A stretch of DNA of 64,000 nucleotides. Origin: Akkermansiaceae bacterium. GTDB lineage: Bacteria > Verrucomicrobiota > Verrucomicrobiia > Verrucomicrobiales > Akkermansiaceae. Below are positions 30,386-49,736 of the stretch, piece by piece. Position 1 is the stretch's first letter. Each line of letters begins with the position of its first letter. A program made the translations under genes and the position numbers. The notes beneath the pieces were generated by a model. The model was not told where the DNA came from. It saw only the letters and a list, made by a program, of their open reading frames with translations, and did not search any database. The stretch spans positions 1-64,000 of the forward strand of contig JABDRB010000014.1 of the NCBI GenBank assembly GCA_013041925.1, read 5' to 3'.

Positions 30386-33300
30386 CTAATCTGCCTTCGG
30401 AACAAACACCAAGCTACGTGGCTGGCCATCTTTGCTGTAGAGTAAGCCGGCACCCAGATCTTGTTTCTGGAAGATCACACCCGCCATCTTGGCTTTGTCA
30501 CTTCCGTTAACAAAAGACCCCTTGATCTGACCATTCTTGGTGCTCACCTTAACTTTGATTTTCTCCAGTCCTGCGTATTTTATTTTGTTTGTTGATCCCC
30601 ACTCCAGATCGAAGACTTCGGACTCTTCTATTTGCATCTCAACATTCGGAGTCGCATCTGACGCTCCAGCGAGCAATCGGCCGCCTGTATTCAGGTAGCG
30701 TGACCCTATCAGGCTTCTCTGAAGGCTGAACTCTCCTGGTTTGCTCCAGTGCACCTCGCTGTCACAGTCACTTATTCCAGCCACGTTACGGAAACGCACC
30801 AAACCACCAAGCGAGCCCGTCTTGCGATATAAGGCAGCGTAAAGGGGCATCTCCCCATCGGAAGTGACTAGGCACTTCGCCGTCCATTTGCTCCCGTCTC
30901 CTAGGAGACCCTTAACTTTAACGGTTCCTTTCGAACTAACCGCCATCAGGGCATAGCCGTGCCCTTGTGGAGCGGATGGTTCGTCGGCCTCACCAAGGAC
31001 AAGGATCGTATAGGCACCCGTGTAGGGGGTATTTATACCGGATTTGACCGCTACCACATTGGCGGTCTCACTGCCCACAATGACGGTGCCTTCCACCTTG
31101 TAACTTCCCGCGGAGGTTGTCACCAATTGAAGATCAACGCTTGCAGGACTACCACTCTTAGGCGTGATCACCCCAGAGTATTGTCCATTCTCGTCAAACA
31201 TTCCTTTAAGCGAGTAGCTAACGTTGCCGTAAGTCATCTTGGCTGAGAGCTTTCCTGATTTCGACACCTTGATGCTCTTGAAGAACCCCAAGGACTCACC
31301 TCCGTCTGATGATGCAAGATACCCCGAATAGCTACTCGTCCCCGTTGTAATCACGGTTGAAGCGGTCGAATCAGGAGGTGTTGCCAGATCTGTCGGGCGG
31401 GTGATCTCAGCAAAATCGACCTCTTCTTGGTAATCGATCGTATCACTCTTCACTGACGATTCACCATCCGTGTTCTTGAGCTTGAAATACACGGTCTTGA
31501 CGCCTGAACCTGACGACAACTCGAAAGAGGGGCTGCTTGCGTAGACCTGCCAGTCAGCTCCCGAGAAATTGGCGTCTTCACTGGACATGAAGTGAGTGGG
31601 TGCCCCACCACTGCTGCTGTGATCCAGCGTTACTGTCTGAGTCGCCGTCGTGCTCTCGTCGCTATTGATCATCAGGGCGTCGAGCACACTGATATCACTA
31701 TCCCCATCACCATCGGTAACATCGATATCGTAGATTGGACCGTAGGCGAGAGAGGAACCCATCAAATTGGCACGAACACTGAGGCAGTAGGTTCCTGTTG
31801 CAGCAGGAACGAAAGAAAAGGTATCGCTGCCAACCACCGTTTCCTCCGAGACGTTTACCACTTCTTCGATATCGGAGAATGTGATGTTGTCGATATACCA
31901 GCCTGCGGTAGTGGTATTCGGATTGATTGTTGTATAAACCGAGCTGTATTCCGAATCGAGAAGAAATCGGATTCTGACTGTTTTTCCCGCACTTGCAGAG
32001 AGGTCTACGATGCAGTTTTTGAAGGTGCTTTCGCCGGATGAGTTCGAGCCAGTTTCATTGAAGTTTGTGTCGATCCATGTGGTGCCATCATCTTCAGATA
32101 TTTGTAGTTTGGTGCGTTGGGTGTCTGTCAGCCATGAAGCGCGTGATTTGAAGTCGAGTTGAGCTGAGTTTCCCAAGTTGAATGTCCTAGTGAGTGTCAG
32201 AATTTGGTTGGAGTATTGATTATCGAATAACCTGAAGGCATTCCCCGAAACGCGGGTGCCACTTTGAACCGGTGAGTAACTACCCGTTGTGCTGGTGACG
32301 TAGCCTTCAGTGCCCTGGTCGGCATCTTCCGTTGTTGGGCTGGATATGACCTCCCCCCATCGCCATGTGTATCCTATCGCGCCGGCCACCGACGCCGCCG
32401 TGTAACTGTCTGTATCCCCTTGAGTCATTTGACTTGGGCCCGATATGCTCGGGGCGGTGTAGGTGAGGATCAGGTCCTGCTTGAGATTGTCTAAATCACT
32501 AATCGCTACATCATAAGTGACTGGGCTCGCAGAAAAACTCGGTGTGAATGAGACATCATAATCGCCATTACCTGGCACTGGGATCGCGTAACCGCCAGAT
32601 GTGCTGGTCACCGCAAATGCGTTGGATCCAGATGCATTGACGGTGACGCCACCAACGCCTTCGCCAATATCGTAGAAGTTGTTACCGTTGAGGTCATAGT
32701 AGGCTACCCCCGTGATAAATGGGGTGGCATTGGACTGGCTACCGAAATTCTGTGTGCAGATCTCAGGGCCTATGGCGACCGTGTTGCCTGATGGAATCGT
32801 TGTCTCCGTTGAGGTTAAATTAGCCACCCCGATCTCACGGAAAGATTCATTGTGGATGTTATCACGGTGTCCTCTGGGGTCCTGCATCCCTCCTGTTGCG
32901 GCGTTACCGCCCCAGTCGACTTGATACGAAGCATAACCGAACAAGACGTCGTAGGATGCGGTGTAGGTATTCTCCCCCCATGCGCTCCAATCATAACCTT
33001 GCGCGGCAATACGCTCATTGCCATACCCTCCATCAGGGGCATTATTGGTGCGGTGCCCTTGAAAATCGAGATCAATTTGGTTTTGGGTGTGTAAACGTGC
33101 GGACGCTGCCAATTGGCTGTTAATAGCCAGCGGCGGCTGCACATTGATCGCGGCAAACTCGTTTTGCATAAGGGTGAGATCGACGCCGAACTGACTGTAA
33201 GCCGCTTGAATGTATGGATAAAGGGAGTTATTGAGCGCCTTTAAAAGGATCCCTTCTGCGGTGGGATTGGCTCGTGCTCGGTTAATGAATTCGACATAGA

Positions 33301-33427
33301 GCTGCTCCTTAGCGGTGGGCTCTCCAATCGAATACTGTGCAGGATTACCTGGATCGCCTGATACGACAGGGGCCGCCATCAATGACAAGAAGTAGAGGGG
33401 CAGTGATTTTTTGAGGTGCGCATTCAT
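30386..33427 (-). CDS. large secreted CAP-domain (SCP/PR-1-like) multidomain protein
   Basis: 1013 residues with a Sec signal peptide (to about residue 24). Residues 40-230 are a CAP domain: EFINRARANPTAEGIL, SARLHTQNQIDLDFQGHRTN, SAWGENTYTASYDV and DPRGHRDNIHNESFREIGVA hold its conserved His, Glu and second His. Next is an SdrD B-like/carboxypeptidase-regulatory fold (GVAYYDLNGNNFYDIGEGVG). Two beta-rich regions follow: one resembles a jelly-roll ligand-binding module (about 330-560), and the C-terminal 300 residues carry a Gly/Ser/Lys-rich repeat (SYSGYLASSDGGESLGFFKS, SYSLKGMFDENGQYSG) of the kind common at the ends of secreted verrucomicrobial proteins. The function is unknown; CAP proteins act in secreted or surface roles. 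No export anchor is evident at the C-terminus. Confidence 0.85.
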   Translation of the reverse strand: MNAHLKKSLPLYFLSLMAAPVVSGDPGNPAQYSIGEPTAKEQLYVEFINRARANPTAEGILLKALNNSLYPYIQAAYSQFGVDLTLMQNEFAAINVQPPLAINSQLAASARLHTQNQIDLDFQGHRTNNAPDGGYGNERIAAQGYDWSAWGENTYTASYDVLFGYASYQVDWGGNAATGGMQDPRGHRDNIHNESFREIGVANLTSTETTIPSGNTVAIGPEICTQNFGSQSNATPFITGVAYYDLNGNNFYDIGEGVGGVTVNASGSNAFAVTSTSGGYAIPVPGNGDYDVSFTPSFSASPVTYDVAISDLDNLKQDLILTYTAPSISGPSQMTQGDTDSYTAASVAGAIGYTWRWGEVISSPTTEDADQGTEGYVTSTTGSYSPVQSGTRVSGNAFRLFDNQYSNQILTLTRTFNLGNSAQLDFKSRASWLTDTQRTKLQISEDDGTTWIDTNFNETGSNSSGESTFKNCIVDLSASAGKTVRIRFLLDSEYSSVYTTINPNTTTAGWYIDNITFSDIEEVVNVSEETVVGSDTFSFVPAATGTYCLSVRANLMGSSLAYGPIYDIDVTDGDGDSDISVLDALMINSDESTTATQTVTLDHSSSGGAPTHFMSSEDANFSGADWQVYASSPSFELSSGSGVKTVYFKLKNTDGESSVKSDTIDYQEEVDFAEITRPTDLATPPDSTASTVITTGTSSYSGYLASSDGGESLGFFKSIKVSKSGKLSAKMTYGNVSYSLKGMFDENGQYSGVITPKSGSPASVDLQLVTTSAGSYKVEGTVIVGSETANVVAVKSGINTPYTGAYTILVLGEADEPSAPQGHGYALMAVSSKGTVKVKGLLGDGSKWTAKCLVTSDGEMPLYAALYRKTGSLGGLVRFRNVAGISDCDSEVHWSKPGEFSLQRSLIGSRYLNTGGRLLAGASDATPNVEMQIEESEVFDLEWGSTNKIKYAGLEKIKVKVSTKNGQIKGSFVNGSDKAKMAGVIFQKQDLGAGLLYSKDGQPRSLVFVPKAD

Positions 33428-34094
33428 AGTCGTGAGGTGGTTGTTTCGAGTGAGATGGTTGAGAATATTGCGTGATCAGGTGAAAAAGGGTTGCTTGCCG
33501 GAATATCAAAGGTTGCTGTCTTCTGTGTGGCTAGCTGACCCTGCGTTGGTTGCCGACGCTCATGAGTCCCGCCCCGTGGATACGGCTTTCGCATCCTTCG
33601 AGGGGTCGTTCAACACAGTGCCTCAATGAGGCAACGTCACTACGCGATTGCGTATCGACGGCAAATCCGGAAGCAGCGGATTCGCTTCCGATGCCAAGGC
33701 TCCATGCTTGAAAAAACGTGGTGCTGGCAGCCATGGAGACAGCCAGAATAGTGTGTTTATAGGGTAATCCCATCAGATATCATGAGTATGTCAGATTCTC
33801 GTCAGGGGGTAGAGGAGGCATCGTTGTGTGTTTCTTTTGTCTATATGGTTAAATAATCGTGAGAGGATGATTTTAAACTTCTCTCGGAGTTCACCCTTCA
33901 TAAATCATTAACGATGATATGTTTACACCGATGATAAGCCGCTGTCAAGTCGGCGTTTGCAAACCGTGAAAAAAATGATTTCCTCCTGTTTACAGGGATT
34001 TATGCTGAAAAAGGCTGAGTCCATCTAGGGTGGATGACTTGACCTGCGTGATCATTGGGCTTTTCAGACCCAGATTGGGCATCACATTCCGTGA
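33428..34094. other. 667-base region between the CAP gene and purH
   Basis: It holds one small reverse-strand frame (33531-33773, listed apart) and two short symmetric elements: TGCCTCAATGAGGCA (33619-33633) and AATCCG/CGGATT (33664-33682). The part from about 33800 to 34094 is AT-rich and shows no gene; it probably contains the promoter of neighbouring minus-strand genes. Nothing else is supported. Confidence 0.5.
33531..33773 (-). CDS. possible small secreted protein or 5' remnant of a lost gene
   Basis: An 80-codon frame on the minus strand starts with a signal-peptide-like stretch (GLPYKHTILAVSMAASTTFF) and continues with IGSESAASGFAVDTQSRSDV, which reads like the beginning of an exported protein. 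It then becomes Cys/Arg-rich and stops. It lies 103 bases upstream of the CAP-domain gene, in the same direction. I do not recognise it. It may be the intact start of a gene whose remainder was lost or frameshifted. Confidence 0.3.
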   Translation of the reverse strand: MGLPYKHTILAVSMAASTTFFQAWSLGIGSESAASGFAVDTQSRSDVASLRHCVERPLEGCESRIHGAGLMSVGNQRRVS

Positions 34095-35639
34095 TCAATG
34101 CCTGAAGTGGCGGTAGCCGGTGAAGATCATGGCGATGCCTGCTTCATCAGCGGCGGCAATGACTTCCTCATCACGGATCGAGCCTCCGGGCTGAATACAA
34201 GCGGTGGCTCCAGCGTCGATGGCGGCTTGCAGACCATCGGCAAAGGGCAGCATGGCATCGGACGCCATGATGCTGCCTTTTAATGAGAGGCCAGCCTCAT
34301 TGGCTTTCCAGACAGCGATACGGGAAGAGTCGACACGACTCATCTGACCCGCACCAATTCCAAGGGTTCGGTCCATTCCAGAGTAGACAATGGCATTAGA
34401 TTTGACGTGTTTGACAACGCGCCATCCGAAACGCATGGCGCGCATTTCGTCTTCTGTAGGTGGACGTTTGGTGACAACTTTTCCTTCGAGATTATCAAGT
34501 CCTAGTGTGGTGTGGTCGCGGCCCATCACCATCAAACCACCAGGTGCGGATCGGATCACGGGGTCTTTTCTTACCGCTTCCCATGCCTCGGGGTTGAGTT
34601 TGATCAGGCGCAGGTTTTTCTTTTTCTGCAAAATGGCGCGTGCTTCAGGTTCAAAATCAGGTGCGATGATCACATCGGTAAAGATCGAGGAAATGATGCG
34701 GGCCAGCGCCTCGGTCACGGAACGATTGATGACGATCACGCCGCCAAAGGGTGCCTGAGTATCGGTTTCATAGGCCAATTGCCAGGCTTTGCGGAGATCC
34801 TCATCGTCCTGCCCAAGGCCACATGGGTTCGTGTGCTTGAGGATACCTACGGTCGGGCGCACGAAGTCGGTGATCAGATCAGAGGCGGCTTCGATATCGA
34901 GGATATTCGTGTAGCTCAATTCCTTGCCTTGAAGCTGGGTGAAAACGTCACTGAAATTTCCGTAGAGTGTGGTTGGTTGATGTGGGTTATCACCGTAGCG
35001 CAGTTCACGGTCGAGTGGTAAACTGAGCGTAAACTGAGAGCGTGTCCCCTCACCGGCTTGGGAAAGGTAATTGGTGATCGCGGTATCGTATGTCGATGTC
35101 CGAAGGAACACCCTGACCGCGAGCGCTTCGCGAAATTTAAAGGAGGTATCGCCACCGTGCTCGTCCATCTCTGCGAGCACACGGTCGTAATCCGTGGGAT
35201 CAGTGACAACGGTGACGCTCTTGTAGTTTTTGGCAGCACTCCGAAGCATGGACGGACCTCCGATATCGATATTTTCGATGGCTTCCTCAAGGGTGACGCC
35301 GTCCTTGACGATGGTTTCCTCGAAGGGGTAAAGATTCACAACAACAAGATCGATGGGCGGGATCTCGTTGTCCTTGGCTTGTTTCAGGTGGAGATCGTCA
35401 TCACGCTTGTGGAGAAGACCGCCGTGAACCTTAGGGTGAAGGGTTTTGACACGCCCTTCGAAAAGCTCGGGCGCACCGGTAAACTCAGAAACATCGATCA
35501 CGGGAAGACCCGCATCGCGGAGAGCCTTGGATGTTCCGCCGGTGGAGAGTAGTTCGACATCGTGCTTAACGAGACCTTTAGCAAAGTCGATTAGACCTGA
35601 TTTGTCAGAAACGGAGAGGAGCGCGCGTTGGATAGCCAT
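34095..35639 (-). CDS. purH: bifunctional AICAR formyltransferase/IMP cyclohydrolase
   Basis: 514-residue PurH, which carries out the last two steps of IMP synthesis. The start at ATG 35639 gives the family N-terminus MAIQRALLSVSDKSGLIDFA; the frame is open further upstream but that part overlaps the preceding metal permease gene and is unrelated. The MGS-like cyclohydrolase domain has LLSTGGTSKALRDAGLPV, FEGRVKTLHPKVHGGLL and IDLVVVNLYPFEET. The formyltransferase domain includes LRYGDNPHQPTTLYG, GILKHTNPCGLGQ with the catalytic Lys-His pair, and the terminal FTGYRHFRH. Length is normal (510-530). It starts 44 bases after the last gene of the metal-uptake operon on the same strand, so readthrough is possible, though no functional link is obvious. 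Confidence 0.97.
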   Translation of the reverse strand: MAIQRALLSVSDKSGLIDFAKGLVKHDVELLSTGGTSKALRDAGLPVIDVSEFTGAPELFEGRVKTLHPKVHGGLLHKRDDDLHLKQAKDNEIPPIDLVVVNLYPFEETIVKDGVTLEEAIENIDIGGPSMLRSAAKNYKSVTVVTDPTDYDRVLAEMDEHGGDTSFKFREALAVRVFLRTSTYDTAITNYLSQAGEGTRSQFTLSLPLDRELRYGDNPHQPTTLYGNFSDVFTQLQGKELSYTNILDIEAASDLITDFVRPTVGILKHTNPCGLGQDDEDLRKAWQLAYETDTQAPFGGVIVINRSVTEALARIISSIFTDVIIAPDFEPEARAILQKKKNLRLIKLNPEAWEAVRKDPVIRSAPGGLMVMGRDHTTLGLDNLEGKVVTKRPPTEDEMRAMRFGWRVVKHVKSNAIVYSGMDRTLGIGAGQMSRVDSSRIAVWKANEAGLSLKGSIMASDAMLPFADGLQAAIDAGATACIQPGGSIRDEEVIAAADEAGIAMIFTGYRHFRH

Positions 35640-35683
35640 AGTAGATAACCCGTAGATGGGCAGCCCCCAACTACCTCCAGCTG

Positions 35684-36646
35684 CTACTCGGGGCAAGCCG
35701 AATCTGTTCCAATCTTGTCTGTAGGCGCTTCGATTCGGCGATGCGCCAGCCACTTCCTAGCCACCACCCCGTAACGAGGGGAGAACAGCCAAGCTATCAC
35801 GAAGACCCCCCCGGCCGAGGCGGCGATCATACCGGAAGTCGAGGTGCTTTTGAACCCGAGCAGAGGTGGCACCGTGATTGCAGAGACGTGGCCGAGCCCG
35901 GCAGAGAGCACGCCGACCACGGCGCTGATGACGAGCATCAGCTTGAGGTTATCCGTCAGTAATTGGGCCGTGGCGGCTGGCACCACAAGCATAGCAATCA
36001 CGATGATGCTACCCACCGACTCGAATGCGGCCACCGTCGTCACGGCCACCATCGCCATCAGCAGATAATGCATCAGTTGCGCATTGATCCCCAGCGAAGT
36101 CGCCAATTCTGGGTCAAAGGCACTCAGCTTAAATTCCTTGAACAACAATCCAATGACCGTGGCATTCAGGCAAAGAACCACCGACAACACCATCGCTGCC
36201 CGTGGGATATCAAAAAGGTAATCACCGAACCCCAAGGTGGCCACCGTATCGAATGGGGTAAATTCCAATGCCCCATAAAGCACACAGCCAGCGTCAATAT
36301 CCACATGGTCCGCCGCCTGAACAATCAACAGCAAACCCAAGGCAAACAAGGTAGTGAAGGTGATCCCCATCGCGGCACCACGGTCGACCTTACCCCACTT
36401 GCTAATACACTGGGTAAAAAACGCCGTGAGTAATCCCATCAGCGCCGCCCCGATAAACATCGGCAGACTCGAACGGCTTCCTGTCAGCAAAAAACCCAAA
36501 GCCAGCCCCGGCAGCACGGCGTGGCTGATCGCATCCCCCATCATACTCATCCGCCTCAGCACCATAAAACACCCAGGCAGGGCACAAGCGACCGCGCAAA
36601 GTGCGCCGACGACCACAATCGAGGTATCTTCCGGTATCCAATTCAT
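35684..36646 (-). CDS. metal ABC transporter permease (YtgD/ZnuB/MntB-like)
   Basis: 320-residue integral membrane permease of the ABC-3 family for divalent metal import (Mn, Zn or Fe). About nine hydrophobic segments are visible, beginning IVVVGALCAVACALPGCFMV. The family hallmark MMGDAISHAVLPGLALGFL, with its G-D-A-x-S-H-x-x-x-P-G motif, lies near residue 35, and FESVGSIIVIAMLVVPAATA near residue 205 is typical. The last 25 residues form a charged cytoplasmic tail. It overlaps the permease-regulator fusion gene by four bases (ATGA), so the two are translationally coupled, and the pair would form the heterodimeric channel. It is the last ABC gene in the order binding protein, ATPase, permease-regulator, permease, as in chlamydial ytgABCD. 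Confidence 0.9.
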   Translation of the reverse strand: MNWIPEDTSIVVVGALCAVACALPGCFMVLRRMSMMGDAISHAVLPGLALGFLLTGSRSSLPMFIGAALMGLLTAFFTQCISKWGKVDRGAAMGITFTTLFALGLLLIVQAADHVDIDAGCVLYGALEFTPFDTVATLGFGDYLFDIPRAAMVLSVVLCLNATVIGLLFKEFKLSAFDPELATSLGINAQLMHYLLMAMVAVTTVAAFESVGSIIVIAMLVVPAATAQLLTDNLKLMLVISAVVGVLSAGLGHVSAITVPPLLGFKSTSTSGMIAASAGGVFVIAWLFSPRYGVVARKWLAHRRIEAPTDKIGTDSACPE

Positions 36647-38169
36647 GATGTTACTTCTTCTACGACCGTATGCGGGCTTGGCGGGATGACCTGGGTATCG
36701 ACACTCTCCTCGAGAATGCTCTCCAACTCCCTCACCATTTCAGGACTAAGAATGTGCTCCACGGAGTCAGCGTCCCTGTCCACATGGCTCGGGGCAATAT
36801 CCGCGTGCGTGATTAGAAAAATCTCCCAAAGTCGGTGGTTTCGGGTAATCCGGGCCGCCTCGCCAAAGCCGGATTCCGTGAGGCTCACCGAGCTTCCATC
36901 GAAGAGCTGAATATGATCCTCCCTCTTGCCCCGGCGCAGTAGGGCATGAAGGTTCGACTGACTCCACGAGCGATGCTTCAACAACGATTCAAAGTCGATA
37001 GGGTTGTTCGATAGCGCCGTGTGCCCCCTGCTCTGTTGATGCGCCTCGATGATCTCAAAAACAGCTCGTAACAAGTGCTGCCTCCCCACTTTTATCGTCA
37101 GCTGCCGGTGAGAAAAAGCCCTTTTGACAATCCCCCTTGAGGTTCCAAATAACATACTGAACAGAAACAAGGACGCTGCCATGAGCACAATCACCGCCCC
37201 CGCCGGCATATTCGGAAGCAAGGCGCTGAGCGACGCCCCCAGCCAACCGCTCAAGGCACCAAACACGGAAGAAAGCTTGAGCATCGTCTTGAGATCATCA
37301 GTCCAGAATCTGGCCGTCGCAGCAGGCGTGATCAGATAAGCAATGATGAGAATTAGCCCGACCGCTTGCATACCCACCACCGTGACCGCAGCCACCAATG
37401 CCATCATTACCATATCGAGCAAATTAATGGGAACCCCCAAGACTTTGCCAAAGTGCTGATCAAAACACAACAAGGTGAACTCCTTCAACAGAAACAGACA
37501 CGCGATCGCAATCACCAAGGCCACACCGGTGAGCAGTAAAAAGTCCTGCATCACCATCGAGGCCGCTTGTCCGTAAATAAACTTCTCCAGCCCTGCTGAA
37601 CTCGCGCCCGGCACCGTCTGGATCATCGCCAGCAACGCAATACCGACGCCAAAAAACACACTGAGCACAATCCCCATGGCCGCATCATCTTTCACTCTCG
37701 AGGTCTTGCTAATCAACATGACCATCCCGACACCCATCACTCCGGTGATCGATGCCCCCAGCAACAAACCTACAAGATTCTTGCCGCCCCCCCCCACCAT
37801 CACCATCAGGATGAAAACTAGGGCGATTCCCGGCAAACAGGCGTGCGAGAGCGCATCTCCCATCAATGATCGCTTCCTTAATAAAAGAAAACTACCCACC
37901 AGCCCAGCCGCGACCCCCAAGATCATGGTGCTCAATACCACCAAGCGGGTATTGTAGTTTTTCAACAACAAAACCTCCCTAACATCGATCCACGAGGGCG
38001 CCTCAATGGATCTGACCGCCCCGCTTTTCAGCTGGCTGCCCATTAATTCAATTCTTTCCCCTCCCTGATCCGCGGGACCATCATGGTCGTCCACCAGAGA
38101 AGCACTAGCCAACGACTGAACCCCAAAGAGAACCAGCAGGATGACAACAACTCTGGATAGCATATTCAT
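36643..38169 (-). CDS. metal ABC permease fused to DtxR/MntR-like regulator (YtgCR-like)
   Basis: 508 residues. A cleavable or anchoring N-terminus (MNMLSRVVVILLVLFGVQSL) precedes the ABC-3 permease, with RSLMGDALSHACLPGIALVF (G-D-A-x-S-H...P-G) and GLILIIAYLITPAATARF. From about residue 350 the protein becomes soluble: HLLRAVFEIIEAH and SQSNLHALLRRGKREDHIQL as a degenerate winged helix, then a DtxR-type dimerisation/metal region with SLTESGFGEAARITRNHRLWE. In SHVDRDADSVEHILS the His and Glu-His ligands of DtxR are kept, with Asp where DtxR has Cys102, closer to Mn-type MntR. The same fusion is known as chlamydial YtgC-R, where the regulator is released by cleavage. A run of nine G residues lies in the permease part (37787-37795). 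It overlaps the ATPase gene by four bases. Confidence 0.9.
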   Translation of the reverse strand: MNMLSRVVVILLVLFGVQSLASASLVDDHDGPADQGGERIELMGSQLKSGAVRSIEAPSWIDVREVLLLKNYNTRLVVLSTMILGVAAGLVGSFLLLRKRSLMGDALSHACLPGIALVFILMVMVGGGGKNLVGLLLGASITGVMGVGMVMLISKTSRVKDDAAMGIVLSVFFGVGIALLAMIQTVPGASSAGLEKFIYGQAASMVMQDFLLLTGVALVIAIACLFLLKEFTLLCFDQHFGKVLGVPINLLDMVMMALVAAVTVVGMQAVGLILIIAYLITPAATARFWTDDLKTMLKLSSVFGALSGWLGASLSALLPNMPAGAVIVLMAASLFLFSMLFGTSRGIVKRAFSHRQLTIKVGRQHLLRAVFEIIEAHQQSRGHTALSNNPIDFESLLKHRSWSQSNLHALLRRGKREDHIQLFDGSSVSLTESGFGEAARITRNHRLWEIFLITHADIAPSHVDRDADSVEHILSPEMVRELESILEESVDTQVIPPSPHTVVEEVTS

Positions 38170-38972
38170 TTGTGTGATTTACCTCGGCTAACCGCCTCGG
38201 CAGCCTCATCAAGTAGCGACAACTTACCTCCGTATGTCTTCATTAGATTTTCCTTAGTGAAGACATCCTCCGTCGGCCCAGCTTTGACCACACGCATGTT
38301 TAGAAGCACGACCCAGTCAAAATACTCGGCCACTGTCGCAAGATCGTGATGCACGACCATGCAAGTTTTCCCCTGATCCTTCAGCTCGTGGAGCAGAGTG
38401 ACAATGGCACGCTCGGTGGCCGCATCCACAGCGGCAAACGGCTCATCCATCATGTAGAATTTTGCATCCTGAGCCAAGGCCCGCGCTAGGAAGACCCGCT
38501 GTTGTTGGCCACCGGATAGCTGGCTTATCTGTCGGTTCGCAAGATGGCCGATCCCAACGTGATCGAGCACCTCCTTCGCCTTCTGAAGATGCTTCTTTTT
38601 AACCGATCGGAACCAGCCGATTTTCTGATACATCCCCATGGCCACCACATCCTGGGCGCTGACGGGGAAATCCCAGTCGACGCTTTCGCGCTGCGGCACG
38701 TAACCCACGAGTGAGCGTTGTTTTTTATAGGGTTCCCCGTAGATCTTGATCTCTCCAGACGCTCGGGGGATCAAATCCATACAGGCCTTGATCAGCGTGC
38801 TTTTCCCCGCACCATTAGGCCCTACAATCCCAACCAGTTTCCCTTCGGGAATATCCAAGTCGATATCCCAGAGTACGGGCTTACGATGATAAGCCACCGT
38901 CAGGTCGTGAATGGCCAACGGGTGGGAGGCACTGTGGGAAGGGTCTAATGAGTTGTCCGAAGATATTTTCAT
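38166..38972 (-). CDS. metal ABC transporter ATP-binding protein (YtgB/ZnuC-like)
   Basis: 268-residue cytoplasmic ATPase that powers the two permeases. Walker A GPNGAGKSTLIKAC at about residues 54-67, Q-loop in VGYVPQRESVDWDFPVS, signature LSGGQQQRVFLARAL, Walker B KFYMMDEPFAAVDAATE and the H-loop MVVHHDLATVAEYF are all intact. VPQRESVDWDFP is characteristic of the Mn/Zn-transport subgroup (MntB/TroB). The stop overlaps the start of the permease-regulator fusion (ATGA), and the gene begins 54 bases after the binding-protein gene. Nothing unusual in length or composition. Confidence 0.93.
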   Translation of the reverse strand: MKISSDNSLDPSHSASHPLAIHDLTVAYHRKPVLWDIDLDIPEGKLVGIVGPNGAGKSTLIKACMDLIPRASGEIKIYGEPYKKQRSLVGYVPQRESVDWDFPVSAQDVVAMGMYQKIGWFRSVKKKHLQKAKEVLDHVGIGHLANRQISQLSGGQQQRVFLARALAQDAKFYMMDEPFAAVDAATERAIVTLLHELKDQGKTCMVVHHDLATVAEYFDWVVLLNMRVVKAGPTEDVFTKENLMKTYGGKLSLLDEAAEAVSRGKSHK

Positions 38973-39026
38973 ATGAAAAGTGTGTGTTGCGACGCCATAA
39001 CAGCGGGAACCTTGCCGCAGCCAGCC

Positions 39027-40040
39027 TTAGTGTTTGTGACTCAGTTTTCCGTTCAACCCCTTTTCGGGAGCCTCACCACCGAGCGATCTCGCGATCACCG
39101 TCACGTTGTGATCAATCATACCAATGTAAGTGCCCTCATAGGTTCCCGTGGCACCCATGGCATCGGAAAAGAGCTCGCCGCCAATGCGCACGTCATGCCC
39201 TCTAGCCTTCGCTCCCTCCACGAGGGCCATCACATTTTTCTGTGACACAGAAGATTCCACAAAGACGGCAGGGATACCATTCTCGGCAAGATAGGCCACT
39301 AGGGTTTCAATACGCTTCACCCCAGCCTCAGACTCGGTGCTGATACCCTGAATCCCCCTCACCTTTAAACCATATGCCCGACCAAGGTAATTGAATGCAT
39401 CGTGCGCCGTCACCAGCACACGTTGCTTCTCAGGAATGGAGTCGATTACCTTTTTGGCATAGGCATCTAACTTAACCAGCTCGGCCTTGTAATTCTCCGC
39501 GTTAGTTTGGTAAAATTCCTCGTTCACCTTGTCGTAATCCCCCAGTGCTTTGGCCACGACATCGGTCGCTTTGATCCATCCCTGCACATCCATCCAGACG
39601 TGGGGATCATAGTGCTCCTGCTCATCAGTCATCACGTAGTCTCCCTTATCAAGAATGACTTCGGTTACAGCATGCACAGGCTTCCCCTTACGGGACACAC
39701 GAATCAGCACGTCGCCCATCTTACCCTCAAGCATCAGCCCGTTGTAGAATACGATATCGGCATCACTCAGTGAAACCACATCAGCTCGAGTCGGTTTGTA
39801 GACGTGGGGGTCCACGCCCTCGCCGATAATCCCCTCTACCTTCGCCTTATCACCGGCAACATTCTGGACAATGTCAGCAATCATTCCCACCGTGGCAGTG
39901 GCCTGATAAGGGTAATTGCTGGGTCCGTCAACGGAGCCCTTTTCAGCTCCGGACTTCTTTTGACACGAGGTGCTCAGCACACTCAGGAATGCTAGCGAAA
40001 GCGCCAGCGTCATCATTAGGTATTTCTGTGTTTTTTTCAT
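39027..40040 (-). CDS. metal ABC transporter substrate-binding lipoprotein (YtgA/TroA/ZnuA-like)
   Basis: 337-residue cluster A-I binding protein. The signal ends with lipobox LSTSC (Cys26), so it is a lipoprotein facing the periplasm. The metal-site motifs are GVDPHVYKPTRADV (first His), EHYDPHVWMDVQGW (second His), VTAHDAFNYLGRAYGLKV (third His) and the later FVESSVSQKNVMAL; a C-terminal Asp is expected in the IGMIDHN region. There is no long His-rich loop of the kind that marks many ZnuA proteins, which leans toward manganese or iron rather than zinc, but the metal cannot be decided from sequence. It is the first ABC gene of the operon, 22 bases after the porin gene. Confidence 0.9.
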   Translation of the reverse strand: MKKTQKYLMMTLALSLAFLSVLSTSCQKKSGAEKGSVDGPSNYPYQATATVGMIADIVQNVAGDKAKVEGIIGEGVDPHVYKPTRADVVSLSDADIVFYNGLMLEGKMGDVLIRVSRKGKPVHAVTEVILDKGDYVMTDEQEHYDPHVWMDVQGWIKATDVVAKALGDYDKVNEEFYQTNAENYKAELVKLDAYAKKVIDSIPEKQRVLVTAHDAFNYLGRAYGLKVRGIQGISTESEAGVKRIETLVAYLAENGIPAVFVESSVSQKNVMALVEGAKARGHDVRIGGELFSDAMGATGTYEGTYIGMIDHNVTVIARSLGGEAPEKGLNGKLSHKH

Positions 40041-40062
40041 TCGTTTGGTTTTTTATTAAAAA

Positions 40063-41316
40063 TTAGAAGCTCATAGAGAATCTGACGCCTCCGATCAGGG
40101 CATTATCCACCGCCGTATCACCGGAAGGATTCACGATATATTGGATCTCCGGCTGGATATAAAATGTCGGGCAAAGCTGACAGCGATAGAATAGATCAAT
40201 GGCAGTCTCATCTTTCGCAAATCCAGCGGCAGGATCATCGGAAAGATCCGCATGCGTAATGTAGACTCCTGCGGAGTCGTCATCGCGACCAGCAAAGGTC
40301 CCCTGCGTCACCACTCCAGCTCCAAAATGCTGTGCAATCTCACTGAGGCTTTCGTCCGCCCAGCCGTATTGAGCAAAAACATACACGCCGCCGTCGTCGG
40401 AACCAGATGCACGCCGCGATAACCGCTGCTCCACCGTCAGAAAGTATCCATGTGTGCCATCGTCCATGCTGCCATCAAAGCCCGTGAATTCACCATTATG
40501 ATGCCAGCCTCCTAACGACAGTCGACCTTCGAGCCAATCCCCACAGTTGTCCCAGGCCAGTTCACCTTGGAAAATCTGAAAGTAATCATCCGACACACCG
40601 TCACTAAAAAATGTCGATGGCCCACGCCTACCCAGCCGAACCTCATCCACTGCAGTCGCCCCGTCAAAGAGACCATAACCCAGGGTGAAGGTGTAATTTT
40701 CACGATCCACCAGCGTCGCAAATACGTTCACACTCATGCTGGGATCCGGATAGCTTGGGAAAGCAAAAATCGTGGGGGAAAAACCCGCAGATGAATTGGC
40801 AAAATTCCCCGCTGCATCCACATAGTTATACTCGGAGTTGGCATCCACTTTGCCGAGCTTGATGCGCAGACGACCATCCATCAGCTCCTGCTGGTACCAA
40901 AGTTCGTAAATGGCATCCATCGCGCGATCCGTTTCAATATTCGTATAGGCTTGGATGTCACCCGCATCCGCTGATCCACCACGCTCACGTGTCACGTGTA
41001 AGAACTGAGCAAATATCGTCCCCCCATTGAGACCCATCAACTTCTCAAGATCAAATTCGACATCAAAGGTGAACAGATGCCGGTCCGATCCGTCACGGCG
41101 GAGCCCACCGTCAAAAACTCGACTGCGCTCATAAATAAATTCTCCCTCAAAACTGATACCCTGATCTTCCCATTCACCACGCCGGTCTGACATCCAGCCT
41201 GCTTCCTCGGCCCCAGAGGCCACAATCGCTTCGGAAGCCGCCAACGGGCACGCCCCAAAAATTAACGCCGCCATAGCGATACCCATCACTCCCGCATCTG
41301 TCATTTGCTTCATCAT
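40063..41316 (-). CDS. OprB-type outer membrane porin heading the metal operon
   Basis: 417 residues with signal peptide (cleavage near the LAASEA segment, about residue 27). The mature protein alternates short polar and aromatic stretches typical of a beta-barrel, with RGEWEDQGISFEGEFIYERS and LNGGTIFAQFLHVTRERGG near the N-terminus, the motif KVDANSEYNYVDAAGNFANS and a C-terminal Phe (GGVRFSMSF), the usual outer membrane insertion signal. These features fit the OprB (carbohydrate-selective porin) superfamily. It is the promoter-proximal gene of the metal ABC operon, 22 bases before the binding-protein gene, so it may supply the metal across the outer membrane; this is inference from position. 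Start could be ATG 41316, 41313 or 41304. Confidence 0.82.
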   Translation of the reverse strand: MMKQMTDAGVMGIAMAALIFGACPLAASEAIVASGAEEAGWMSDRRGEWEDQGISFEGEFIYERSRVFDGGLRRDGSDRHLFTFDVEFDLEKLMGLNGGTIFAQFLHVTRERGGSADAGDIQAYTNIETDRAMDAIYELWYQQELMDGRLRIKLGKVDANSEYNYVDAAGNFANSSAGFSPTIFAFPSYPDPSMSVNVFATLVDRENYTFTLGYGLFDGATAVDEVRLGRRGPSTFFSDGVSDDYFQIFQGELAWDNCGDWLEGRLSLGGWHHNGEFTGFDGSMDDGTHGYFLTVEQRLSRRASGSDDGGVYVFAQYGWADESLSEIAQHFGAGVVTQGTFAGRDDDSAGVYITHADLSDDPAAGFAKDETAIDLFYRCQLCPTFYIQPEIQYIVNPSGDTAVDNALIGGVRFSMSF

Positions 41317-41362
41317 TTTCTATTTTATTGATCAAATACCACACCTGCCGTGGACGCGCGCA

Positions 41363-41391
41363 CCCATACGCCTCACTTCTACGACGGTCAA
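41363..41391 (-). promoter_or_regulatory. candidate promoter of the porin/metal ABC operon
   Basis: On the minus strand TTGACC (41391-41386) and TATGGG (41368-41363) are separated by 17 bases, about 47 bases before the porin ATG. The -35 is good; the -10 is poor. The palindrome at 41393-41418 lies directly upstream. Confidence 0.4.
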
Positions 41392-41392
41392 G

Positions 41393-41418
41393 TTAAAATT
41401 AGCCTAAACTAATTTTAA
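41393..41418. promoter_or_regulatory. 26-bp palindrome, candidate DtxR/MntR-type operator
   Basis: TTAAAATTAG and CTAATTTTAA are perfect 10-bp complements around the six-base spacer CCTAAA. The core TTAGCCTAAACTAA resembles DtxR-family boxes, whose classical form is built from TTAGGTTAG and CTAACCTAA halves. It sits next to a possible promoter, 77 bases before the operon whose third ABC gene encodes a DtxR-like domain. It may also serve the divergent gene at 41746. Confidence 0.5.
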
Positions 41419-41745
41419 TTTCTTTGGCTTATTTTATTGGTCGTGATGTATTCTATGATTTCTGAGGCTTACGCCCGCGCACCCGATGCATGACAGCCAA
41501 AGCCTTTGGAGTTTTTCTACTGAGCACGTTACTACTCGCTGAGCTTTACTCTAGGCGCATCAGGCAGGTAAGAGCACATGGTAGGCGGCTATGGGCTACC
41601 AATGGTCTCAAACGTGATGGATACTGTATGGACATCATCAATCAAGAAGATAACATGGAAGTCCTCATCGGTGGACGTCCCTATGAATTTCATGTTCACC
41701 GATCATGGCAAAGAGCCATAACCCACCAAATCATCCACAAAACCC
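41419..41745. other. intergenic stretch before the DUF2231-cytochrome gene
   Basis: No supported gene. A plus-strand frame opens at ATG 41490 with a hydrophobic start and runs on as the shadow of the next gene; I do not accept it. The region presumably carries the leader and promoter of the gene starting at GTG 41746. Confidence 0.45.
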
Positions 41746-43371
41746 GTGAAAGAACCCGATTCAACTATCACCCCCGACGAAGCTAAGAACAACCTTCAAA
41801 AGAAGTTCTTCCGCCCCTTACTTATTCTAGGTTTACTGATCATCGCAGGGGTGGCGAGCATGCCGTGGCTGGGAGAAGTGGGAATGGCAAGTGATAAAGC
41901 CACCACCGTCATCGGGCAATGGATCGGTTTCCTCGGTCGGTTTCACCCGATTTTCCTTCACCTACCGATCGGAGCGCTGACGCTTGTCCTGCTGATGGAA
42001 TGCTTGGGGCTGATCAGTTTGGGGAAATACAAGCCACACACGACGCTGGGTCTTGGATTTGCGTCGGCCACGGGTGTTTTTGCCGTCGTTTTTGGCTACT
42101 TTCTCTACCTCACCGGCGACTATTCGGGCGAGTTAATCGAAGAACACAAGCGTGATGGCGTGATTTTTACGATCTTACTCATCGCCACCTTTCTGATCAA
42201 ATACGCCCACGATATCCGCTTCATGACCAAGCTGACGAGGCCTGTTTACGCCATCGGTCTTATTGCCACCACCGCGACGATGTTCAGCGCCGGACACCAT
42301 GGCGGCGAAGTCTCCCACGGGAACCCCTTCGATAAAGCGCCATGGATACAGAAATCAGACAAACCTACCAGCGCCGCAGAGATTGCCGACCCCGTCGTCT
42401 ATAAAAAAATCATCCACCCGATCCTCGATGCCAAGTGCGTGAGTTGCCACGGCGATAAAAAACAGAAAAGCGGACTGCGTGTCGATAGCTACGCAGGATT
42501 GCTTGATGGCGGCGAAGAAACCGATGCCCTCATCCCTGGCGACCTGAAAAAAAGCGCCCTCATCTCATACCTCCACCTCCCGCTCGATGACGATTTGCGG
42601 ATGCCCCCAGAGGGCAAAACCCAACTCACTCAGGAGGAAATTCAAATCCTTGAATGGTGGGTGAAAATCGGAGCCCCTGAACATGCCAAGCGCAGCGAGG
42701 TAGAAATCACTCCCGCGATCGCCACCGCCATCGACACCCTGAAAACACCCGAGGAGATCGCCCAAGCCAAAGCCGCAAAACGCGAGGCCGAGCATCAGAA
42801 GCTCAGCGCGATGAAACAAAAACGCGAACAACTGGCGATATCGATCACCCGCGTTAATCAACAATTCCCAGGCTCACTCAATTACATTTCCCAAGACAGC
42901 ACCGAGCTGAGCTTCTCCGCCGTAAGTTATCGTAAAAATTTCACCGACGAAAACCTCACCGCCATCAAGGATGCTGCTGCCGACATCACAGACCTCGACC
43001 TCGGAGCATCCGCCCTCACCGATAAAGGAGCAGCCATGCTTGATCAATTCACCCAAGTCAAGGTGCTTAAAATCAACCAAACATCCATCACCGACGCCGC
43101 ACTGCCGATCATCGCCAAACTCGATCACCTCCAGTCACTCAACCTCTACGGCACCGCAGTGACCGATGCCGGAATCAAGGCCCTCTACGGAAAAACCTCA
43201 CTGAAAAAAGTCTACCTCTGGGACACCCAAGTCACCGAAGCTGGAGCCAAGGCCTTGCAACAAGACCTAACAAAGTCTCACGCCAAGGCTCAGGCACAGG
43301 TCAAGAAAGAACATAGGGACAACCAAGCCCCTCAGGTCATCCTCGGGTCAACCGCGTCCAACCCCTCGTGA
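41746..43371 (+). CDS. DUF2231 membrane protein with planctomycete-type cytochrome c and LRR
   Basis: 541 residues from GTG 41746. Residues 25-190 contain four to five membrane helices of the DUF2231 type (PIFLHLPIGALTLVLLMECL, TGVFAVVFGYFLYLTGDYSG). At about 225-305 lies a planctomycete cytochrome C (PSCyt1-like) domain with one haem motif, CVSCH, flanked by IIHPILDAK and KSGLRVDSYAGLLDGGE, and MPPEGKTQLTQEEI, whose Met may be the axial ligand. After a charged coiled region (about 320-370) the C-terminus is built of leucine-rich repeats (DLDLGASALTDKGAAMLDQF, LQSLNLYGTAVTDAGIKALY). Such combinations are typical for PVC bacteria and their role is unknown; electron transfer in a membrane complex is likely. 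The upstream ResB/CcsA system would attach the haem. Confidence 0.88.
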   Translation: MKEPDSTITPDEAKNNLQKKFFRPLLILGLLIIAGVASMPWLGEVGMASDKATTVIGQWIGFLGRFHPIFLHLPIGALTLVLLMECLGLISLGKYKPHTTLGLGFASATGVFAVVFGYFLYLTGDYSGELIEEHKRDGVIFTILLIATFLIKYAHDIRFMTKLTRPVYAIGLIATTATMFSAGHHGGEVSHGNPFDKAPWIQKSDKPTSAAEIADPVVYKKIIHPILDAKCVSCHGDKKQKSGLRVDSYAGLLDGGEETDALIPGDLKKSALISYLHLPLDDDLRMPPEGKTQLTQEEIQILEWWVKIGAPEHAKRSEVEITPAIATAIDTLKTPEEIAQAKAAKREAEHQKLSAMKQKREQLAISITRVNQQFPGSLNYISQDSTELSFSAVSYRKNFTDENLTAIKDAAADITDLDLGASALTDKGAAMLDQFTQVKVLKINQTSITDAALPIIAKLDHLQSLNLYGTAVTDAGIKALYGKTSLKKVYLWDTQVTEAGAKALQQDLTKSHAKAQAQVKKEHRDNQAPQVILGSTASNPS

Positions 43372-43435
43372 GAAACCAGACTCTCGGGCAGCTTCAGCCG
43401 GTGACAAGCGGCTAACGTCCGCCCCAGAAAAAAGC

Positions 43436-43786
43436 TTATCGTCCGTTCTGCTCCTTGGCACTCTGACAATGAATACAGAGTGACACCGAGGGCTTCGCTC
43501 TCAGACGCTCAATATTGATATCCTTGTGACATTCATCACAAACACCATAGTCACCTGCATCTAAACGCTGTAATGCGTATTCGATTTTTTCCAGCAGCTT
43601 ACTCTCAGAGTAACCTAACTGGTGCTCCACGACATTATCAGCAATCTTATCGGCCCGCTCGGTCTCATCGGCAATCACGCCGGCACCGACTCCCGTCATG
43701 ACTCCATGTCGATTGACATCCTTGAGAACATGATTTCGTTGACCCACCAAAGATTCGCGTAGTTCATTTTTTTCGCTTTCAGTCAT
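43436..43786 (-). CDS. TraR/DksA-type C4 zinc finger protein
   Basis: 116 residues. The N-terminal 75 form a charged helical region (EKNELRESLVGQRNHVL ... KLLEKIEYALQRLDAGDYG), and the C-terminus has a C4 zinc finger: Cys83 and Cys86 in CDEC and Cys104 and Cys107 in CIHC. YGVCDECHKDINIERLRAKP is the usual DksA-family sequence. DksA-like proteins bind the secondary channel of RNA polymerase; this one lacks the characteristic D-x-x-D-x-A tip of E. coli DksA as far as I can see, so it may be one of the general TraR/YocK-type proteins. It lies convergent to the cytochrome gene, 64 bases away, and opposite to the riboswitch-controlled operon. Confidence 0.87.
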   Translation of the reverse strand: MTESEKNELRESLVGQRNHVLKDVNRHGVMTGVGAGVIADETERADKIADNVVEHQLGYSESKLLEKIEYALQRLDAGDYGVCDECHKDINIERLRAKPSVSLCIHCQSAKEQNGR

Positions 43787-43923
43787 AAATATTGATTGGG
43801 TTGCTTAACAGCGCAATTATAACACAACATTGAACACTGCGCTACGCATGTTCGGCTTCTGCCTACGCCTATTTTGCTATCTCATTGCCATTGCAAGCTC
43901 ATCCCCGTAATGCTACGCCCAGT

Positions 43924-43942
43924 TGTCACGCAAAACGTGACA
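43924..43942 (+). repeat. perfect 7-bp hairpin just before the cobalamin aptamer
   Basis: TGTCACG and CGTGACA pair around CAAAA. It may be part of the leader fold (a 5' accessory stem) or a separate site; the aptamer begins shortly after it. Confidence 0.45.
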
Positions 43943-43949
43943 CCTCTAT

Positions 43950-44100
43950 GGAAGCCCGTGGCACGGGCAGGAAATAGATGGGGAATCCGGTGAAACATCC
44001 ATGGGAACATGGATACCATTCCGGAGCGGTTACGCCACTGTAATCCTTGATCGCATCACGCGAAAAAGGTAAGCCAGAAAACCAGCCAAAGAGGTTGAGT
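43950..44100 (+). promoter_or_regulatory. cobalamin riboswitch (B12 element) upstream of btuB
   Basis: The leader shows the conserved order of the cobalamin aptamer: a GC stem (GCCCGTGGCACGGGC), GGGGAATCCGGTGAAA (43980-43995), the B12-box region GGAGCGGTTACGCCACTGTAATCC (read in two parts: GGAGCGGTTACGCC, then ACTGTAATCC), and the closing GTAAGCCAGAAAACCAGCC (44069-44087). It precedes btuB by about 40 bases and probably lowers expression of the whole uptake operon when adenosyl- or methylcobalamin is plentiful. The boundaries are approximate. Confidence 0.92.
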
Positions 44101-48737: not shown

Positions 48738-49736
48738 ATGGTTCAATCACCTCGTCATTTCATCTATTTCCTCCTGCTGCCACTTGCCATGGTCACGCTG
48801 GTCGTTATGCCGTGGCTGGGTGAACACCATCCTGCTCTGGACGTCATCCTGAGACCCAGCGCTGACGACTTAGATGCCATGATTTTCTGGCAGATCCGTG
48901 TTCCACGCGTTTTGCTCGCCATGTTTGCTGGGATGGGTCTGTCACTCGGCGGAGTTGTTTTTCAAGCCATTTTTAGAAACCCCCTAGCCACGCCCTTCAC
49001 GCTCGGTGTCGCTGGCGGCGCGTCACTGGGGGTTACCTTAGCCGTTTTTCTCGGACTCAATCTCACAATCCTTGGGGTTTCGGGCGTATCGATCGCCGCA
49101 TTGGCTGGTGCGATCGGCGCCATTGCTGTCGTCTATGGCATCGCGCGGGCAACGGGAAATATTTCACCCAACACGATGCTATTAGGTGGAGTAGCCATCA
49201 GCTTTTTCTTCTCTAGCCTGATCCTCCTGCTTCAGTATCTCGGTGATATGAGTGATTCATTCCGCATCATCCACTGGCTGATGGGAGACCTCAGCCGCGC
49301 GAGTGTGGACACGGTATTTCAGATCCTCCCATTCATTGTCAGCGGTGCCATCATCACAGGCCTCCTCCACCGGGAGCTCAATCTGCTTTCGCTCAATGAT
49401 GACTTGGCCGCGAGCTGCGGCTTACACGTCGAGCGCATGCGCATCATCCTCTTTCTCGCCGTCTCGTTGATGATTGCTGGCATTGTCACCGTCTGCGGGC
49501 CGATCGGATTTGTCGGCATCATGGCACCTCACATTTGCCGTCTCATCGTCGGGGCCAACCACCGCAACCTGATCCCAGCAGCTTTGCTCTTTGGCGGTAT
49601 ATTCCTTACCCTCTGTGACACCTTGGCCCGCACCATCTCGGTCTCGGCAGAAGTTCCCGTCGGCATTATCACGGCCATCCTCGGCGGCCCATTTTTCCTC
49701 TGGCTTCTCTTTAAAAAAGCACGCAGCCTTAGCTGA
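48738..49736 (+). CDS. btuC: FecCD-family permease, BtuC-like
   Basis: 332-residue inner membrane permease with about ten hydrophobic segments. The family motifs are RVPRVLLAMFAGMGLSLGGV near residue 55, NPLATPFTLGVAGGASLGVT near 85, IHWLMGDLSRAS near 180, and ITVCGPIGFVGIMAPHICRL-like sequence (here VTVCGPIGFVGIMAPHICRL) near 255, with the final PVGIITAILGGPFFLWLLF. The length matches BtuC (326). It forms a homodimer with two BtuD subunits. The gene is the last member of the riboswitch-controlled operon; a 98-base gap separates it from the subtilase gene. Confidence 0.92.
   Translation: MVQSPRHFIYFLLLPLAMVTLVVMPWLGEHHPALDVILRPSADDLDAMIFWQIRVPRVLLAMFAGMGLSLGGVVFQAIFRNPLATPFTLGVAGGASLGVTLAVFLGLNLTILGVSGVSIAALAGAIGAIAVVYGIARATGNISPNTMLLGGVAISFFFSSLILLLQYLGDMSDSFRIIHWLMGDLSRASVDTVFQILPFIVSGAIITGLLHRELNLLSLNDDLAASCGLHVERMRIILFLAVSLMIAGIVTVCGPIGFVGIMAPHICRLIVGANHRNLIPAALLFGGIFLTLCDTLARTISVSAEVPVGIITAILGGPFFLWLLFKKARSLS

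Follow-up and report, generated by a model that had tools for sequence, protein, structure and literature searches.

An Akkermansiaceae contig (JABDRB010000014.1, positions 1 to 64,000, hereafter the window) carries on its minus strand, at 35684-40040, an operon for an ATP-binding cassette (ABC) importer of metals in which the first of two permeases continues into a domain of the DtxR/MntR repressor family. Sequence comparison, a predicted model and analogy with other importers make it, on balance, probable that this fused domain is a recruited cytoplasmic metal-sensing regulator of transport, which would control the importer rather than DNA. Permease-DtxR fusions are known mainly via Chlamydia, and the puzzle they pose is that of a repressor working from the membrane. 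We favour control of transport because the DNA-binding helix-turn-helix (HTH) family is rare in fused domains and universal in stand-alone ones while the metal-binding family is found in all of them, because the core metal ligands are conserved and the spacing across the join is invariant within one predicted helix, because both permeases are fused in 42 of the 88 complete operons and separate MntR/DtxR proteins exist in the genomes, and because an operator-like site also precedes an operon with no fusion and operons whose fused tails are degenerate.

The genes concerned are as follows:

35684-36646, minus strand: second permease, 320 amino acids, unfused (open reading frame and Pfam; ABC-3, E 8.7e-47)
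36643-38169, minus strand: permease-DtxR fusion gene, 508 amino acids (open reading frame, Pfam, AlphaFold2, structure alignment)
38166-38972, minus strand: ATPase subunit, 268 amino acids (open reading frame list and Pfam; ABC_tran, E 6.8e-31)
39027-40040, minus strand: metal-binding lipoprotein of the ZnuA/TroA/PsaA class, 337 amino acids (open reading frame list and Pfam; ZnuA, E 5.8e-78)
40063-41316, minus strand: OprB-type porin, 417 amino acids, probably the first gene of the operon (PF04966, E 2.4e-40; co-transcription inferred)

A first-pass annotation, made from the letters of the window, had read a binding lipoprotein, an ATPase, a permease-DtxR fusion and a second permease here, the 508-residue gene overlapping each neighbour by 4 bases (38166-38169 and 36643-36646). 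Reading frames and Pfam confirm this, and the ytgABCD-like gene order and fusion agree with the published Chlamydia order. The combination of genes for a ZnuA-type binding protein, an ATPase and ABC-3 permeases places the system among the ABC-3 (cluster A-I) importers. Chance or an annotation artefact as the source of the fusion was ruled out by the reading frames, Pfam, the AlphaFold2 model and structure alignment.

Fold, metal site and DNA-reading sequence of the fused domain

Within the fusion protein the following parts were distinguished:

37147-37947, minus strand: ABC-3 permease part, residues 75-341 (Pfam E 1.3e-61; Z 33.4 to PsaBC)
37027-37131, minus strand: continuous predicted helix, residues 347-381, from the permease into helix 1 of the DtxR fold (AlphaFold2; anchor spacing)
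36709-37092, minus strand: DtxR-fold domain, residues 360-487 (predicted model, Foldseek, structure alignments)
36919-36969, minus strand: recognition-helix position, residues 401-417, with the DtxR/MntR signature lost (alignment, profile)
36754-36837, minus strand: metal ligand stretch with H445, E449, D464, D468, E471 and H472 (alignment)

Pfam places Fe_dep_repr_C (PF02742) at residues 431-487 (E 1.7e-13). The AlphaFold2 model of the full fusion protein, built with 74 aligned fusions out of 83 candidates, reached a predicted local distance difference test (pLDDT) score of 87.6, and that of the domain alone, with 88 sequences, 86.8. Residues 358-502 of the predicted model align to DtxR with Z 14.2 and a root-mean-square deviation of 2.3 Å over 127 residues, and the isolated domain model aligns to apo-MntR (2hyg) with Z 14.1 and 2.2 Å over 120 residues. 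According to the alignment tool's own note, a Z of about 14 can also be reached by mostly helical models with no clear match; we consider the match credible because the 50 matches that Foldseek lists for the domain model all belong to the DtxR family (best E 7.2e-05), in agreement with the sequence match. The winged-helix fold is thus kept in the predicted model. Its loss had been named beforehand by the first-pass annotation, together with a C-terminal region unmatched by DtxR/MntR, as an outcome that would speak against the fusion; both are absent, since the DtxR match and the fold were found, and fold loss, for which we searched, is contradicted by the model.

The fusion carries the metal-binding/dimerisation domain of the repressor family with its core ligands H445, E449, E471 and H472, as the annotation had said of the His and Glu-His positions. 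It had also noted Asp in place of Cys102 of DtxR as a hint of manganese. The replacement is real (D468), and His98 is likewise Asp (D464); the hint itself is weak, because MntR has Glu at the Cys102 site and Asp or Asn at the Met10 site according to PMC10317159, and the protein of the window has Asp and, by alignment with stand-alone proteins, His at these sites.

The wider comparison covers named relatives, chiefly from Verrucomicrobia and Planctomycetota, and 89 more stretches around fused frames, annotated jointly with the named loci. All four core ligands (H79, E83, E105 and H106 in DtxR numbers) are present in 93 of 97 first-permease domains, where some of the four deficient rows seem cut or misaligned, and in 48/48 second-permease domains. 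Asp replaces both His98 and Cys102 in 73/97 of the first-permease set, and His stands at the Met10/Asp8 site in 61/97.

The DNA-reading half tells a different story. PF01325, the N-terminal DNA-binding family of DtxR, has no match in the 508-residue protein at E <= 1. The family counts use fused sets reduced from 97 to 88 and from 48 to 44 sequences, and 38 of 46 stand-alone sequences; seven in frames of at least 300 amino acids were omitted, as was L020, itself a fused domain that a contig end cuts short. The same 38 serve for the profile, Thr40 and identity comparisons, and the residue table and charges cover all 46. PF02742 is matched by every first-permease (88/88), second-permease (44/44) and stand-alone (38/38) domain. 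PF01325 is matched by 2/88 first-permease domains (best E 0.0054), by 0/44 second-permease domains and by 38/38 stand-alone proteins of the same loci. The position of Thr40, which is among the residues that contact bases (PMC10317159), holds Thr or Ser in 6/97 first-permease, 3/48 second-permease and 38/38 stand-alone sequences. A profile trained on half of the stand-alone HTHs gave median scores of 45.4 for the held-out half, -11.7 for first-permease and -14.6 for second-permease domains; against a profile of all stand-alone HTHs, the domain of the window scored -26.9. Mean pairwise identity in the HTH amounts to 0.47 and 0.45 of that in the metal domain for the first- and second-permease sets, and to 0.80 of it for the stand-alone set. 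Furthermore, in a domain tree of 119 columns, with many unresolved forks and a few long-branched rows, the three classes form largely separate groups, with 5 label changes against a minimum of 2 and a shuffled mean of 62. The fused domains have thus lost the HTH recognition sequence and retained the predicted fold and the metal site.

The join between permease and domain is equally regular. Between G346, at the permease end, and L367, which lies in the first helix of the DtxR fold, the spacing is 21 residues in 96/96 first-permease sequences (one of the 97 rows has no second anchor) and in 48/48 second-permease sequences, that is in all 144 of the 144 measurable cases, while the distance from L367 to H445 varies from 52 to 106 residues.

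The mechanism that we infer would run as follows. The operon codes for a porin and an ABC importer that takes up a divalent metal. When cytosolic metal has risen, it would bind between helix 1 (H365) and the ligands H445, E449, D464, D468, E471 and H472 of the metal/dimer domain, and binding would stiffen or tilt the helix leaving the membrane, because helix 1 continues that helix; by running on into the membrane, the helix would couple the metal site to the permease. Permease and ATPase would then be held in a resting state (trans-inhibition), the opposite sign being possible, and in double fusions the two domains could pair like a DtxR dimer within one transporter. A stand-alone MntR/DtxR, acting on the upstream palindrome, would take charge of transcription. 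Transporter-bound control domains have a precedent in MetNI and ModABC (PMC10710835). The suggestion of the first-pass annotation that the sensor could report transport directly is the better half of its inference and gains support here, with mechanism, sign and metal remaining conditional.

Stand-alone regulators and the upstream palindrome

Two further features come into play:

L144, 4830-5795: DtxR-FeoA gene of the window's genome, adjoining FeoB
41390-41421, no strand: palindrome (13-nucleotide arms; core TTAGTTTAGGCTAA at 41399-41412) lying 74-105 bases upstream of the porin start, candidate operator of the DtxR type

Besides the fusion, the genome of the window encodes two DtxR-family proteins. 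One, of 143 amino acids, matches both DtxR families and NCBIfam MntR (142.4 bits, cut-off 138; PF01325 E 3.1e-18); the other, of 321 amino acids, combines PF02742 with FeoA, and its gene lies directly before FeoB. The fused domain is therefore not the only DtxR-family member in this cell, unlike what is stated for Chlamydia. In the sampled Verrucomicrobiota, PF02742 matches outnumber fused frames in 36/36 genomes with a fusion (a tally of match numbers). A stand-alone DtxR-family gene lies within the fetched stretch of 44/88 complete operons (23/46 single and 21/42 double fusions), including operons whose stand-alone gene is one of the seven in frames of at least 300 amino acids.

Such neighbours invite another explanation, namely that the fused domain pairs with soluble MntR or DtxR and holds it at the membrane according to the state of the transporter, so that the promoter would be informed without contact between the fused domain and DNA. 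The strongly conserved dimer/metal domain would suit this, as would the nearby stand-alone genes and the single fusions, which have no partner in their own transporter. Double fusions have no need of a soluble partner, and fused and stand-alone domains are largely separate in the tree and differ in their ligands; we regard sequestration as quite improbable.

The palindrome of the window fits KTAG-N6-CTAM, the half-site arrangement of the DtxR/IdeR consensus (PMC10317159). Over the 350 bases that precede the binding-protein gene, or in the window the porin gene, this pattern was found in 23/93 loci, or 22 without near-copies. Five permuted palindromes gave 0-4, shuffles a mean of 1.6 (maximum 7 in 200), and local density predicts 1.65. 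It should be noted that the pattern was picked after viewing the top rows of a 19-base scan of the same loci, and is partly fitted to the data; the 19-base DtxR consensus itself was not enriched overall across the 93 loci (mean best match 10.90 versus 10.70 shuffled). Outside the selection data, the pattern occurs in 12 of 20 loci fetched later, which had been selected for a permease in a short or odd frame, and ten of the 12 seem to be one related group. The positive loci are L151, L152 and all ten of L158-L167. L151 has two unfused permeases and an adjoining MntR-like gene. The ten loci L158-L167, a planctomycete clade, have degenerate fused tails and a stand-alone DtxR nearby. Because the site is present at L151 and at L158-L167, it appears, judging from occurrence, to track the stand-alone regulator better than the fused domain. 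A second site of this type lies at C32:4771-4784 of the window's genome, 45 bases before the DtxR-FeoA gene; the genome holds 40 in total.

These observations bear directly on action of the YtgR type, in which the domain, tethered or cut off and with metal bound, would bind the operator of the operon and repress transcription, as in Chlamydia. The HTH signature is missing in nearly all fused domains, the join is a fixed-length helix rather than a loose linker, separate MntR/DtxR proteins occur in the same genomes, and the operator is also found where no fused domain was detected. In favour of a repressor are the match of gene order and fusion to Chlamydia, the repression reported for C. trachomatis YtgR (PMC5599777, PMC7755916, PMC6504234), the complete predicted fold, the positive recognition-helix region and the palindrome upstream; the unfused DtxR-FeoA protein, too, has no PF01325 match. 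We hold this explanation to be unlikely. The first-pass annotation had pointed to the cut-off, repressing half of the Chlamydia protein; YtgR-like action is not supported here, given the lost HTH sequence, the further DtxR-type domains in 36/36 fused Verrucomicrobiota genomes and the operator before an unfused operon, and the proposed role as a tethered or released repressor is weakly supported.

Distribution of the fusions and weight of the evidence

Fused frames of at least 430 amino acids were found in at least 36/288 sampled Verrucomicrobiota genomes and at least 8/80 genomes of a third phylum, and frames of at least 427 amino acids in at least 45/244 genomes of the phylum of G290, a Phycisphaerales metagenome-assembled genome; these counts are lower bounds at the E-values used. 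The third phylum looks like Bacteroidota, because TIGR04183, the type IX secretion sorting domain, was over its cut-off in 10/10 of its genomes tested; among 14 control genomes it was found in two, Bacteroides and Deinobacterium, and exceeded the cut-off in one of these. The first-pass annotation had proposed that the fusion either predates the split of the Planctomycetes-Verrucomicrobia-Chlamydiae groups or has spread among them: the fusion is widespread, and its range is wider than those groups. Wide occurrence is already known, orthologous permease-repressor fusions having been reported in 11 phyla by Thompson et al. 2012, as cited by a review (PMC5599777).

The 88 operons counted as complete have a binding protein, an ATPase and two permeases; 46 of them carry the domain on the first permease alone and 42 on both. 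Single and double fusions number 32 and 10 in Verrucomicrobiota, 8 and 32 in Planctomycetota, and 6 and 0 in the third phylum. Four first-permease pairs are at least 95% identical (the pair L009/L056 is the same contig), and without near-copies 84 operons remain (44 single, 40 double). As a universal fixed trait the fusion holds in the Verrucomicrobiota sample, where frames of at least 447 amino acids contain 32 of the 33 best permease matches (E <= 4.7e-51), the exception being cut by a contig end, and fails in Planctomycetota. At L139, L140, L142 and L143, the fused permeases have about 490-510 amino acids and no binding-protein or ATPase gene was detected nearby.

Several points weigh against control of transport by the fused domain. 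Planctomycetota contain close relatives of the permease with no detectable tail (L151, L154, L156 and L169), and at L138, L152 and L153 the DtxR tail is confined to the second permease; the domain is thus dispensable in that phylum. At L158-L167, both permeases keep DtxR-sized tails that have lost the HTH and in which the metal ligands are broken (6/10 aligned), next to an intact stand-alone DtxR and a TTAG-N6-CTAA operator; metal sensing is therefore not universal. In the model the domain still has a complete winged-helix fold (Z 14.1 to MntR), and Chlamydia YtgR is reported to bind DNA though fused (PMC5599777). Reduced positive charge on the recognition helix, considered as a mark of lost DNA binding, is contradicted, the mean charge of this stretch being higher in fused domains (+2.7 on the first permease and +3.0 on the second) than in stand-alone ones (+1.6); for the complete winged helix the means are +2.3, +0.1 and +1.3. 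The unfused DtxR-FeoA protein of the genome also has no PF01325 match at E <= 0.001, which makes this family an imperfect gauge of DNA binding and slightly weakens our reading. Both PF01325 and the stand-alone profile were built on repressors and might overlook an HTH that works but has diverged. Finally, a dimer inside the transporter of the window is unavailable, because only one domain is present.

The planctomycete clade, with its domain-sized tails devoid of metal ligands, and the rigid join would also agree with a purely structural part, in which the domain stabilises or assembles the transporter and the metal site is a remnant or structural. Against this stand the core ligands in 93/97 and 48/48 sequences of the main set, inside the best-conserved part of the domain, and we think such a role rather improbable.

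A more general proposal, which we put forward tentatively and rate as plausible but somewhat short of probable, is that in Verrucomicrobiota, Planctomycetota and the Bacteroidota-like phylum a DtxR repressor has turned into a DNA-blind, metal-sensing gate of the permease, often paired, that most fusions are non-transcriptional, and that Chlamydia YtgR is an exception or a reversion. If so, the literature's account of these fusions, as transcriptional regulators that may be widespread, would be mistaken in most cases, and YtgR would be the exception or would have regained DNA binding once the stand-alone regulator had been lost. The importer would possess a DtxR-derived control domain, providing direct feedback on a transition-metal ABC importer, and the loci would form a natural experiment: one fold with or without HTH sequence, on one permease, on both or absent, under similar operators. 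The comparison suggests that in free-living relatives the domain may be no repressor. In the literature searched (titles and abstract openings), we found no description of transport control by a fused DtxR domain or of double fusions.

Operon surroundings and known systems

The operon probably starts at the porin gene, one gene above the binding protein and separated from it by 22 bases; its downstream neighbour is the purine gene purH. Homologues of the porin recur in related loci (L010, L011, L055, L081, L101, L123 and L125, and in two pieces in L009/L056), which suggests that it is an outer-membrane partner for metal uptake. The binding protein has the motifs DPHVY at 77, DPHVW at 145, TAHDAF at 211 and FSDAMG at 291. 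No riboswitch was matched by Rfam across 33000-44000 of the window. Divergent from the operon, at 41746-43371, lies the gene of a 541-residue protein with matches to PSCyt1 (planctomycete-type cytochrome) and DUF2231 and weak matches to leucine-rich repeats, and at 49008-49673 an additional weak ABC-3-like permease match (E 6e-7) adjoins an ATPase gene, perhaps an importer of the siderophore or B12 type.

Among known systems, the PsaBC manganese importer of Streptococcus pneumoniae shares the permease fold (269 residues aligned at Z 33.4, with 36% identity), whereas its chains, of 290 and 282 amino acids, are too short for such a tail. With the repressors MntR, DtxR and IdeR the fused domain has in common the predicted fold (Z about 14), the metal/dimer domain and the core ligands; it differs in the missing HTH signature, in the Asp residues that replace His98 and Cys102, in the His found at the Met10/Asp8 site and in a helix 1 that comes from a membrane protein. 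YtgABCD/YtgCR of Chlamydia trachomatis has the same order of binding protein, ATPase, permease-DtxR and permease, with the domain on the first permease (PMC5599777, PMC7755916, PMC6504234), and its fused domain is stated there to be the cell's only identified regulator of its kind; compared by description, the system of the window differs in having other DtxR-family regulators, a lost HTH sequence and a fixed helix as the join. MetNI, with its C2 domain, and ModABC are, like the present system, ABC importers with an added cytoplasmic domain of the ligand-binding type (PMC10710835), and by sequence and model the fusion appears to carry, as trans-inhibited importers do, such an extra domain on a transporter subunit. 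Pairing of two domains, as in these importers, would be possible in double fusions, and the transporter of the window has one domain. Unlike in MetNI and ModABC, the domain is on the permease rather than the ATPase and has a DtxR fold, its ligand is presumably a metal instead of methionine or molybdate, and inhibition of the importer would follow by analogy.

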